55,139 bases of DNA from Campylobacteraceae bacterium. Its GTDB lineage: Bacteria; Campylobacterota; Campylobacteria; Campylobacterales; Arcobacteraceae. Where the stretch lies: positions 1 to 55,139 of the forward strand of contig JABJGE010000054.1 of assembly GCA_018662405.1 (NCBI GenBank), given 5' to 3'. The translations under genes and the position numbers were made by a program. The stretch's first letter is position 1, and each line of letters begins with the position of its first letter. The notes beneath the pieces were generated by a model that saw nothing but the letters and a program-made list of their open reading frames with translations, ran no database searches and had not been told where the DNA came from. Positions 51,577 to 55,111 of this stretch are shown in pieces.

Positions 51577-51939
51577 TTATTTTGATATATCTTGAGCTTC
51601 ACCCCAGAATTGCTCTGGAATTAAATATTCGTCAACTGGATTACCACCAATCATATGCTCATCAATAATTCTATCTATTTTTTCTTTTGTAAGATGTACA
51701 TACATATGGTGACCTGGTTCCATCATCATTACTGGACCCATTTGACATCTACCCATACAGCTAGTTCTAATTGGTTGTACTGGACCCATAATACCTTTTT
51801 GCATTAGTGATTGAGCCATATGATTAAATAGATCTCTTGTTTGTTCACTTACACATGAAGGTTTTGGCATACCTGGAGGTGAAGATTGTTCACACTTAAA
51901 GATATAGAATGTTGGTTGTGGCATTTCTGGCATTTGCAT
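51577..51939 (-). CDS. Thioredoxin-like [2Fe-2S] ferredoxin
   Basis: The 120-residue protein carries four cysteines at C16, C29, C61 and C65 (CEQSSPPGMPKPSC and SCMGRCQMGPV). That is the pattern of the thioredoxin-fold 2Fe-2S ferredoxins. Such proteins carry electrons in the cytoplasm, and the partner is unknown. The Met/Pro-rich N-terminus is unusual for its short length. It is the first gene of the group ahead of panD, 18 bases away. Confidence 0.88.
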   Translation of the reverse strand: MQMPEMPQPTFYIFKCEQSSPPGMPKPSCVSEQTRDLFNHMAQSLMQKGIMGPVQPIRTSCMGRCQMGPVMMMEPGHHMYVHLTKEKIDRIIDEHMIGGNPVDEYLIPEQFWGEAQDISK

Positions 51940-52026: not shown

Positions 52027-53205
52027 TTACTTTACTATATGTCCTACAAATTTAGAATAATTATCTAAAATTATTCCACCTTTTCTAAACCCAAGACCAC
52101 AAGCTTCATATGCGTAGAATACACCTGCTTGATAAAAATCACCATTATTATCTTTTGGAAACTCTACATATTCTTGATATATTGGTTTGAAATTGTCATA
52201 TTCACCATCAGTTTTAATTTCTAATGAATTATCAGCATTAATAATTGCTGTATTTGCTCCTTCTCTCCCAAAGCACATCTTCTCTACTTGTTTTTTACTA
52301 TTAAGTGGTTCAAAAGATGTTTCAAGAAGAAGAGGGTGATTTGGATATAGATCCCAAAGTATTTTCATAAATCCTTTACTTTGAAACATCACTGTATATG
52401 CAGGATTAACAATAATAGCTTTTTTGTTATTTATTATATCTGTCAATAAGACAGCTAATTCACCTTCATCAATAGCAATATCTTCCCATGGAATTAATTT
52501 AAACCAAAATTCAAATATTTTATCTTTTTTAGAAATACCATCATTACTAAACTCAACATCTTCCATATATTCAAAGTCAGTAATATATCCAGCTTCATTA
52601 GCTATATGTTGTAATAGTTTTACTGTATTTTCATCTTCAATAGATTCAGAAATTGAAGAAAATAATATTTTAAAATTCAAATCTTTATAATATTTTTCAA
52701 AATCTTCAATTGGAGTATTTAAAGTTACAAATCTTTTAAAATTATCTTTTAATGATTCATATAATGAATTGAATTGACTTGACTCTTCAAGGTCATTAAA
52801 TTTCAACATAGCCCATTGAATAATTGCAGTTTCAAATACAGAAGTTGGAGTATCTGCATTAAATTCAATTAATTTAATAGGCTTTCCATCTATTCCACCT
52901 GCAAGATCAAATCTACCATATAAATGCCAGTGAACATCATCTTCCCATGATTGTTTAATTAATTCTACTAGATTAAAAGGTATATTTAATTCATGAAATA
53001 GATTATTTTCTATTACATGTTCTCCAGCTTCACAATACATCTCATATAGTTCATTTGTAGCTTCATAATATGCTGTTGCTTCATCTTCTGTGATTTCTAC
53101 AACTTCATCGCTTATATATGAAGTATTGTCATCATCTGTATGCCAATGAAATCCAATAGATTCAAGATATTCATTTGTTAATGGTTTTAATTTTTTTAGT
53201 TGCAT
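52027..53205 (-). CDS. Glutathionylspermidine synthase-like ATP-grasp protein
   Basis: The 392 residues correspond to the C-terminal synthetase domain of glutathionylspermidine synthetase. The substrate/ATP motifs are YGRFDLAGG (R98, D100) and LIEFNADTPTSVFE (112-125). A C-terminal EACGLGFRKGG with a final VGHIV is typical of the YgiC/YjfC group. The amidase domain is absent, and glutathione is generally not made by these bacteria, so true glutathionylspermidine synthesis is doubtful. It lies six bases after the UPF0323 lipoprotein gene, a conserved pairing. Confidence 0.88.
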   Translation of the reverse strand: MQLKKLKPLTNEYLESIGFHWHTDDDNTSYISDEVVEITEDEATAYYEATNELYEMYCEAGEHVIENNLFHELNIPFNLVELIKQSWEDDVHWHLYGRFDLAGGIDGKPIKLIEFNADTPTSVFETAIIQWAMLKFNDLEESSQFNSLYESLKDNFKRFVTLNTPIEDFEKYYKDLNFKILFSSISESIEDENTVKLLQHIANEAGYITDFEYMEDVEFSNDGISKKDKIFEFWFKLIPWEDIAIDEGELAVLLTDIINNKKAIIVNPAYTVMFQSKGFMKILWDLYPNHPLLLETSFEPLNSKKQVEKMCFGREGANTAIINADNSLEIKTDGEYDNFKPIYQEYVEFPKDNNGDFYQAGVFYAYEACGLGFRKGGIILDNYSKFVGHIVK

Positions 53206-53211
53206 ATTGGC

Positions 53212-53829
53212 TTATCCACCGAAACGACTACTAGATCCAGTTCTTGATCCACTTTTATTTCCAAAGAAACCACTTTTTCTAGATGCTTTAGCAGCTTTTG
53301 CTTTTTTAAAACTATTTACACTTTTTGAGTAAGTAGATGGTGATTTGTAATTTCTTGAACGATTATTTTTAAAATTATTATTATTAAATAGTTTATTTCC
53401 AATATAGCTACCTATCATAGCTCCAGCAATTGAGCTTAGTAGAACTTCTCCTAATCCCATTCCTCCATTTGATATTGACTCTTGTGGTTTTGTTAGGTTT
53501 GATGTTCCATTATCTATTTTTATTGCTTCTTGTTGTACAAATTGATCAATTTGGGCTTGTGTTAGAATTCTTTCAGTTCCATCTAGTTCTCTTAAAACAA
53601 TTCTTGTAGAACTGCTTGGAAATTCATCTACAATTGTATATCCACCAGTAGATTGTTTTTCTATGATTACAAATGCATTTTGTTTTTCATTAGCTTGTGT
53701 AAATGATGAATCTTGGCCTGAACCATCTTGAGGTTTTTGTTCACATCCTGTGAACCCTGTTAATAAAACAGCACTTACTCCACCTAAAACAGCAAAGTCA
53801 GATAGTTTTTTAATATATTTTTTACTCAC
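53212..53829 (-). CDS. UPF0323-family lipoprotein with Ser/Gly/Arg-rich C-terminal tail
   Basis: The 205-residue precursor has an N-terminal signal with lipobox FTGC, the lipidated cysteine being C29. A folded middle region follows (AFVIIEKQSTGGYTIVDEFP, about 51-95), then a glycine-rich helix that could insert in a membrane (GLGEVLLSSIAGAMIGSYIG). The basic, low-complexity tail ends SRTGSSSRFGG. Comparable lipoproteins (YgiB type) accompany YgiC-like ATP-grasp proteins in other bacteria. The GTG start lies eight bases inside murE. Function unknown. Confidence 0.88.
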   Translation of the reverse strand: MSKKYIKKLSDFAVLGGVSAVLLTGFTGCEQKPQDGSGQDSSFTQANEKQNAFVIIEKQSTGGYTIVDEFPSSSTRIVLRELDGTERILTQAQIDQFVQQEAIKIDNGTSNLTKPQESISNGGMGLGEVLLSSIAGAMIGSYIGNKLFNNNNFKNNRSRNYKSPSTYSKSVNSFKKAKAAKASRKSGFFGNKSGSRTGSSSRFGG

Positions 53830-55111
53830 CTAATATCTCCATAATAACTTTTTGATCACTAAATGGTAATTTTTGATCATAAATTATTTGATTTTCTTCA
53901 TCACCTTTTCCTAATACTAAAACTACTGGATTCTTAAATTCTTTTGCTTTTTGTATTGCTTGTGAGATTGCAGATTTTCTATTTAAGTCTAAAGTGATCT
54001 TTTCTTTATCATTCATTCCCGAAAGTATATCTTCACAAATAGTATCCGGATCTTCAAATCTAGGATTATCTGCTGTAATGAAAATATGTTTTGCATATTC
54101 ATTAGCTACTCTTCCCATTGCAGGTCTTTTAGTTCTATCTCTATTACCACCTGCTCCAAATACAACAATTATCTCTTTATCTAAAAAGGAATCAAATACT
54201 TTTTTCATAGCATCTGGGGTATGTGCAAAATCGACAACAATGAATGGATCATAATTTACTATTTCCATTCTTCCACTTACACCTGCAAAGTTTTCTAATG
54301 TATCACAAATGTCTTGTAGTGGTTTATTAGTTACTATATGAACAGCAGCAATCGCAGCTGTCATATTATATACATTGAACAATCCAACTAATGTTGAAGA
54401 AAAATTAACCATCTCTTGAAAATATTGTACAGCAACATTCATACCCATATTAAAATTGTAAGCTTGAACTTTATACGTTGCATTATTATCTAATCCATAT
54501 GCAAAACCATTTTTCATATTGAATTTTATTTTTGGATCGTCTTTATTAATTAATTTTTTTGAATCATCATTAAAAAATGAATTTTTAACATCAATATATT
54601 CTTGTAGTGTTTTGTGATAATCAAGGTGATCTTGGGTGATATTTGTATGAACTTTTAATTCAAAGTTCAGCCCTTCTATTCTATTTTGTGATATTGAATG
54701 TGAACTTACTTCCATTACGAAAAAATCACAACCATTATCAATAGCTTTTTGAATATGTTCAAAATTACCTAGTTGTACAGGTGTTGTAAGAGTATAGTCT
54801 TCAAGTCTTTCATCATTTATGAAAAAACCTCGAGTCCCTTGAAGCGCTACTTTATAGCCTAAATCTAAAAGCATAGAATATATTGCAGCAGCAGTTGTTG
54901 TTTTACCATTTGTTCCTGTAATACCAATTATTTTAATTTTTTCAAAATTAAAATAATTTTTCAATTCATTGGAGTTTATAAAATGTGTACACCCATTACT
55001 TTTGGCATTTTCTTTGTATTGTTTATTTGTTTTTGAACATACAAAAGTGGTATTTATATTTGCATCATTTGAATTATCTGTAAATGTTTGATTATTGATT
55101 GATATTGTCAA
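53822..55111 (-). CDS. murE: UDP-MurNAc-L-Ala-D-Glu:meso-diaminopimelate ligase
   Basis: MurE adds the third residue to the peptidoglycan stem peptide. The 429-residue chain has the ATP loop GTNGKTTT at 66-73, the Mur ligase segments NVYNMTAAIAA and ASTPDA-like FAHTPDAM, and DNPRFEDP at 348-355. The Asn-Pro-Arg motif indicates meso-diaminopimelate rather than lysine. The start is TTG; an in-frame stop lies a few codons upstream, so the N-terminus is complete. It is short compared with the roughly 490-residue enterobacterial enzyme, because of a reduced N-terminal domain. Confidence 0.95.
   Translation of the reverse strand: MTISINNQTFTDNSNDANINTTFVCSKTNKQYKENAKSNGCTHFINSNELKNYFNFEKIKIIGITGTNGKTTTAAAIYSMLLDLGYKVALQGTRGFFINDERLEDYTLTTPVQLGNFEHIQKAIDNGCDFFVMEVSSHSISQNRIEGLNFELKVHTNITQDHLDYHKTLQEYIDVKNSFFNDDSKKLINKDDPKIKFNMKNGFAYGLDNNATYKVQAYNFNMGMNVAVQYFQEMVNFSSTLVGLFNVYNMTAAIAAVHIVTNKPLQDICDTLENFAGVSGRMEIVNYDPFIVVDFAHTPDAMKKVFDSFLDKEIIVVFGAGGNRDRTKRPAMGRVANEYAKHIFITADNPRFEDPDTICEDILSGMNDKEKITLDLNRKSAISQAIQKAKEFKNPVVLVLGKGDEENQIIYDQKLPFSDQKVIMEILGE

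Follow-up and report, generated by a model that had tools for sequence, protein, structure and literature searches.

What does an ATP-grasp ligase act on when it is encoded directly behind a lipoprotein whose basic tail ends in Gly-Gly? The question is raised by two neighboring genes in a 55,139-nucleotide stretch of DNA from a Campylobacteraceae bacterium (contig JABJGE010000054.1), which was analyzed as a whole and is referred to here as the window. Following the ligase and the tail through the phylum, other bacteria, and phages, we argue that the tail is likely the substrate of the ligase and a polyamine the likely amine.

Gene layout

The ligase gene follows the lipoprotein gene behind murE (Table 1). 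As stated in the original prediction, the ORF coordinates place the ligase six bases after the lipoprotein (spacer 53206-53211, minus strand) and show an overlap of eight nucleotides between murE and the lipoprotein start. The lipoprotein gene begins with GTG, its product has the C-terminus SRKSGFFGNKSGSRTGSSSRFGG, and the basic tail said to end in SRFGG is indeed present (KSGFFG...SRFGG), its last 45 residues having a net charge of +11. Immediately after the pair, positions 51577-51939 of the window encode a small protein with a weak match to 2Fe-2S thioredoxin-like ferredoxins.

Table 1 Features of the ligase-lipoprotein pair and its context in the window
Feature	Position	Strand	Basis
ATP-grasp ligase, YgiC/YjfC-type, 392 aa, synthetase domain only	52027..53205	-	PF03738
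R98, D100, E114, N116 of the ligase (GspSA R316, D318, E330, N332)	52858..52914	-	10-sequence alignment
GGTGGATAA and spacer: Gly-Gly codons and stop at the expected Shine-Dalgarno position of the ligase gene	53206..53220	-	Sequence; comparison of linked and unlinked genes
Lipoprotein, NF003146/PRK04081 family, 205 aa, proposed substrate	53212..53829	-	NCBIfam score
Gly204-Gly205 C-terminus, proposed ligation site	53215..53220	-	G204 at least 90% conserved
Acid-free tail, residues 129-205, without Asp or Glu	53215..53445	-	Sequence
Internal box KSGFFG, residues 185-190	53260..53277	-	F188 and F189 at least 90% conserved (51-sequence alignment)
Gly-rich, moderately hydrophobic segment, residues 125-143, possible membrane-associated glycine zipper	53401..53457	-	Kyte-Doolittle
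Cys29, predicted lipidated cysteine, TGFTGC lipobox	53743..53745	-	Invariant in 51-sequence family alignment
murE (context, not part of the system)	53822..55111	-	Mur ligase domains

Family, active site, and fold of the ligase

The window ligase matches GSP_synth (PF03738) along the whole profile (404.8 bits, E-value 5e-121, cut-off 29.3, profile positions 3-371 of 371). Neither a domain search nor an alignment with GspSA found an amidase domain, leaving one domain only, in agreement with its earlier description as a YgiC/glutathionylspermidine synthase-like ATP-grasp protein without amidase. GspSA links spermidine to a C-terminal glycine whose carboxylate it has activated, and its catalytic residues are intact in the window enzyme. 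In an alignment of 10 sequences comprising the window enzyme, E. coli GspSA, YgiC, and YjfC, and distant plasmid and phage enzymes, the residues corresponding to GspSA R316, D318, E330, N332, K498, K533, and R538 are invariant, and R598 is nearly so. The AlphaFold model of the window enzyme (pLDDT 83.2) has TM scores of 0.84 to YjfC and about 0.77 to GspSA, and its fold also matches YgiC. The enzyme is very probably active, with a peptide-amine ligase as our best guess of its activity, and it carries no signal peptide. The nearest solved structures are those of YgiC (7uk8; ~31% identity to the window enzyme) and YjfC (7uk6), both named peptide-spermidine ligases in RefSeq after Pederick et al. 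(2023). ATP-dependent ligation of spermidine to a peptide is published for these E. coli enzymes only (doi 10.1021/acs.biochem.2c00592, cited in PMC12568646), and a literature search found no natural substrate for this in vitro activity.

The lipoprotein and its conserved tail

The lipoprotein scores 266.8 bits against NF003146/PRK04081 (NCBIfam cut-off 194), a family of unknown function, and no Pfam family exceeds its cut-off with the lipoprotein as query. A literature search likewise found no known function for NF003146 or for YgiB and YjfM, the E. coli partners of YgiC and YjfC. The sequence has a signal peptide and a lipobox cysteine, as in bacterial lipoproteins, and lipidation is predicted. 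In the 51-sequence family alignment, where mean column identity is 37%, this cysteine, the Phe pair of KSGFF, and the penultimate Gly are strongly conserved (Table 1). The Gly-rich segment has a mean Kyte-Doolittle value of 1.36 (family mean 1.50), with 1.6 or more reached in only nine of the 51 sequences. The single-sequence structure model is poor (pLDDT 43), and the tail is without predicted structure.

As the last 77 residues hold neither Asp nor Glu, the C-terminus is the only carboxylate of the tail. Its internal KSGFFG box corresponds to the RGGFG of partner proteins in Proteobacteria and phages. Of the 57 window ORFs with 110 amino acids or more, none but the lipoprotein ends in GG. 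For the phylum, 108 lipoproteins were picked with a body-only profile from which the last 60 residues were left out, one frameshifted sequence being set aside. The last residue is Gly, Ser, or Ala in all 108 (Ser in 43, Ala in 4). Endings of the form G-[GSA] occur in 100 and GG in 61, where 2000 within-tail shuffles reach at most 17 and 9, respectively, and with one lipoprotein per genus GG is found in 39 of 51. The GG ending is thus more than chance. Other endings also occur among the partner proteins, GS in many cases, GA, NS, IS, AS, or SS in some, and GGE in a few viral ones. The tail ends of one genus, g28 (L023, L027, L030, L093-L097), are unusually variable (NIS, AIS, AAS, FNS, FNA, FGA, FGG), though each of them still closes with Gly, Ser, or Ala. 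In one further locus (L045 810-1412, genome G122), the tail reads ...KKSGFFWRRKFF, with an apparent frameshift within the tag and an intact ligase, and in two loci (L061 and L062, genomes G113 and G156), a single ligase is preceded by a tandem pair of tagged lipoprotein paralogues. The inference in the original prediction that the tail could be the substrate is largely supported, with a refinement: the tail end is conserved, but Gly-Gly is not obligatory, and the constraint lies on the [RK]xGF[FG] box and a small C-terminal residue, in most cases a Gly that follows another Gly. The window protein fits the resulting tag class ([RK]xGF[FG] box, Gly/Ser linker, small last residue, acid-free end), a class whose search rules were set after the first families had been seen and in which sequences with common ancestry do not count as independent. 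The tests on viral loci, DSS3_VP1, and distant partners described below postdate the refinement of these rules.

Ligase and lipoprotein also occur together across the phylum: of 397 surveyed genomes, 355 have the former and 358 the latter. Among the genomes listed, three have the lipoprotein only (G086, a weak match; G232, a contig-end fragment; and G212), and none has the ligase only. In some genomes, e.g., G020, G046, G012, and G180, the two genes lie far apart, and since both are kept when unlinked, their association is more than inherited adjacency.

The same tail beside ligases in other bacteria

As the original prediction noted, comparable enzyme-lipoprotein pairs exist in other Proteobacteria, as YgiB/YgiC and YjfM/YjfC in E. 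coli and in 80 proteobacterial loci where the gene upstream of the ligase was taken by position alone. The upstream proteins end in GG in 75, GS in 4, and SS in 1 of these loci, all 80 have an RGGFG-like box, and none of the 80 has an acidic residue in its last 20 positions. The E. coli partners follow the same scheme, YgiB ending in SRSMGG and YjfM in GHWGG. The linker between box and end ranges from ~9 to 34 residues, and this variable spacing indicates that the C-terminus itself is what is kept.

Beyond these loci, the tail recurs on other proteins, as distant ligases often have an unrelated exported protein with such an end for a neighbor. In Arthrobacter, the ligase neighbor is an unrelated exported protein ending in SRGGFGSGAKGGSVGG, and the tails of the neighbors in Deinococcus, Jeotgalibacillus, Acinetobacter, and Leptolyngbya end in SRGGLTSTARGALSSGG, SKGFGSSGMSSGG, SRGGFGGAVSSGG, and ...GSSRSGGASS, respectively. 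Several carrier bodies belong to no Pfam family and do not match one another, whereas the DUF1190 group does cohere. Homology to DUF1190 (PF06693) was considered as the source of the common tail and was not demonstrated, as tail-less bodies gave an hhalign probability of 22%; a Pfam search likewise gave no DUF1190 match for the window lipoprotein. For ten bacterial loci in which no partner lay close by, the examined region was widened to about 13 kb. Eight of them proved to have a tagged ORF, always within about 6 kb of the ligase and in six cases on the opposite strand. Whole genomes were also scanned with a codon-restricted, in-frame RGGFG...GG-stop pattern of low sensitivity. Of 40 genomes with a ligase and 40 lacking one, only the former contained true matches; there were five, each close to the ligase gene, and four other matches read as out of frame. 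The end of the tail is thus conserved wherever the ligase gene is kept, on unrelated carriers and non-adjacent genes as well, which is the outcome that the original prediction had named as its check. In one bacterial locus (L288), the tagged partner ends in GGE or VGE, a Pup-like C-terminus.

Tagged proteins in phages

Viral ligase loci were scored with an automatic rule for a tagged ORF on the same strand, using the opposite strand as control. A tagged ORF was found in 61 of 76 loci (control, 3 of 76) and, after clustering of the ligases, in 45 of 59 clusters. Among the misses, several do contain an RGGFG-like box but end differently, for instance in GGE; in three, the ligase lies at a contig edge. 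Tagged partners ending in GGE or VGE, reminiscent of Pup, were seen in L357, L372, L374, and L386. In several phages, a tagged lipoprotein gene lies close to that of the ligase, at times with intervening genes, as in Konradin and 44RR2.8t. In DSS3_VP1, the side shown has no tagged neighbor, and a genome scan gave one implausible ORF and one convincing tagged ORF, gp001 (TGGFGRSATASRGGSFGG), which adjoins the ligase across the record ends. As gp001 (L326 170-424) has 84 residues and no evident signal peptide, the tag may function on proteins that are not exported as well. Single-protein scans of Virgibacillus and 44RR2.8t viral records gave nothing new.

Achromobacter phage Motura (L316 1192-4017) encodes a homospermidine synthase, a tagged lipoprotein, and an ATP-grasp ligase in a row, a trio that we read as a putative phage-borne polyamine module. 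Acinetobacter and Aeromonas phages likewise have both lipoprotein and ligase, and enterobacterial phages carry a tagged DUF1190 lipoprotein without ligase (L328 1441-2055, L329 1477-2055, L330-L337). Among viral records, 126 match the tagged DUF1190 lipoprotein and 136 are ligase records, and the lipoprotein-only phage groups, Salmonella entries excepted, are absent from the organisms named for the latter. All eight loci of the enterobacterial-phage type that were inspected end in FGG. These phages apparently rely on the YgiC or YjfC of their hosts.

Proposed mechanism and alternatives

The sequences show the gene pairing, the conserved tail, and the intact catalytic residues; we infer that the tail is a covalent substrate and that its partner is a polyamine, along with the timing and purpose of the modification. 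In this scheme, the ligase probably produces a C-terminal polyamine amide on a dedicated lipoprotein substrate before or during export. The cytoplasmic enzyme would turn the C-terminal carboxylate of the lipoprotein into an acyl phosphate, which would then be condensed with an amine, in all likelihood spermidine or another polyamine. The internal [RK]xGF[FG] box is probably what docks the tail, and a flexible Gly/Ser linker would let the small last residue reach the active site, like the glycine of glutathione in GspSA. Modification would take place before or during Sec export, and the exported lipoprotein would then display a strongly cationic, carboxylate-free end in the envelope.

Given an acid-free tail and a family that joins spermidine to C-terminal glycine carboxylates, polyamine ligation to the C-terminus before export is the simplest reading, and the amine is likely a polyamine because the closest characterized enzymes are peptide-spermidine ligases. 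A common tail on unrelated carriers, kept without adjacency, is also what would be expected of a ligase substrate. Operons with polyamine genes have been published (PMC11237479), and the homospermidine synthase of Motura was counted for a polyamine. Polyamines are available in the phylum, as nspC is present in 392 of 394 genomes; being near-universal, it is uninformative as a discriminator by co-occurrence. Counted against the proposal were the last residue, which is not always Gly, the GGE ending of some viral tails, and the tagged lipoproteins without a ligase of their own in G212 and the enterobacterial phages, although the hosts of the latter presumably have YgiC and YjfC. For the wider system, we lean towards a portable tag ([RK]GGFG box, Gly/Ser linker, small C-terminal residue) that is found on diverse exported lipoproteins in several phyla and large phages and would be capped with polyamine by dedicated ATP-grasp ligases, the enterobacterial phages using the host enzyme.

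The tail could also be a covalent substrate for an amine other than a polyamine, e.g., a peptide, an amino sugar, or a lipid amine, leading to envelope attachment. ATP-grasp enzymes use many amines, and the pairing of tail and ligase does not itself name one. However, the nearest characterized relatives use spermidine, a homospermidine synthase adjoins the Motura pair, and the ligase is without signal peptide, whereas cell-wall attachment would occur outside the cytoplasm. We consider this unlikely, and nothing was found that points to the covalent envelope attachment suggested in the original prediction. A non-covalent role is doubtful as well, in which the tail would be a docking or regulatory element, or an independent envelope-binding element, and the ligase would modify small peptides or glutathione-like molecules. 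Conservation of the internal RGGFG box at least as strong as that of the last residue speaks for docking, yet the very C-terminal residues are also constrained despite the range of linker lengths, and there are almost no other carboxylates in the tail.

That Gly-Gly merely reflects a ribosome-binding site for the ligase, with GGNGGN-stop just before the ATG, is in our view highly improbable. In linked lipoproteins of the phylum, GGAGGN codons are common, and GG ends 48 of 78 of them compared with 2 of 13 unlinked ones. Yet G-[GSA] still ends 11 of the 13 unlinked proteins, and GG is also found in tail genes that come after the ligase gene (Sulfitobacter, Roseomonas), that have other genes in between (phages Konradin and 44RR2.8t), or that lie kilobases away on the opposite strand. 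The downstream, distant, and opposite-strand genes refute a Shine-Dalgarno overlay as the sole cause of GG, and together with the unlinked endings they place the signal mainly at the protein level, the ribosome-binding site probably contributing in part by favoring Gly over Ser at the last position in linked genes. Equally little weight is given to the idea that lipoprotein and ligase only belong to a common pathway, such as a polyamine or envelope stress response, and make no direct contact. PspA, DUF350, and channel genes do recur nearby in some lineages (see also PMC11237479), but only the ligase and the tail recur throughout, and the common tail on unrelated carriers would be left unexplained.

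Comparison with known systems

The proposed polyamine capping of the tail points to a defined substrate and ligation site and can be carried over to E. coli K-12. For spermidine minus water, it would imply a mass shift of exactly 127.147 Da, the value used in PMC12270671. YgiB/YgiC and YjfM/YjfC share gene order and ligase family with the window pair at similar spacing (5 and 2 nucleotides), and YgiB and YjfM, like the window partner, are lipoproteins with an RGGFG or RGGYG box and a GG end. They differ in that YgiB and YjfM belong to DUF1190, while the window lipoprotein is not detectably a member, and in that YjfMC lies in a PspA/DUF350 operon, whereas the window pair follows murE. GspSA has the synthetase fold and catalytic residues in common with the window enzyme, but it carries an N-terminal amidase domain that the window enzyme lacks, and its substrate is glutathione instead of the proposed protein tail.

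In LysW/LysX and Pup/PafA, a small protein with a conserved C-terminus is modified by a dedicated ATP-dependent ligase. Ligase folds or substrates differ from those of the window pair, for which no carrier or degradation role is indicated. Pup ends in GGE or GGQ, whereas the window protein ends in FGG, and GGE occurs only in a few other loci, some viral tails included. In GlyGly-CTERM/rhombosortase systems, exported proteins have GG close to their C-terminus, where it is followed by a membrane helix and a basic end and undergoes cleavage; in the window protein, GG forms the last two residues, with no helix after it. For the beta-grasp domain that precedes GG in ubiquitin-like modifiers, the window lipoprotein offers only its poor single-sequence model (pLDDT 43). 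The closest chemical parallel may be the SUMO- and ubiquitin-spermidine conjugates, which have a spermidine amide on the C-terminal Gly-Gly carboxylate of a protein and arise in eukaryotes through E1 and E2 enzymes instead of an ATP-grasp ligase (PMC12270671). If the proposed mechanism is true, bacteria have a C-terminal protein polyamination that formally resembles these eukaryotic conjugates, and phages carry parts of the system.
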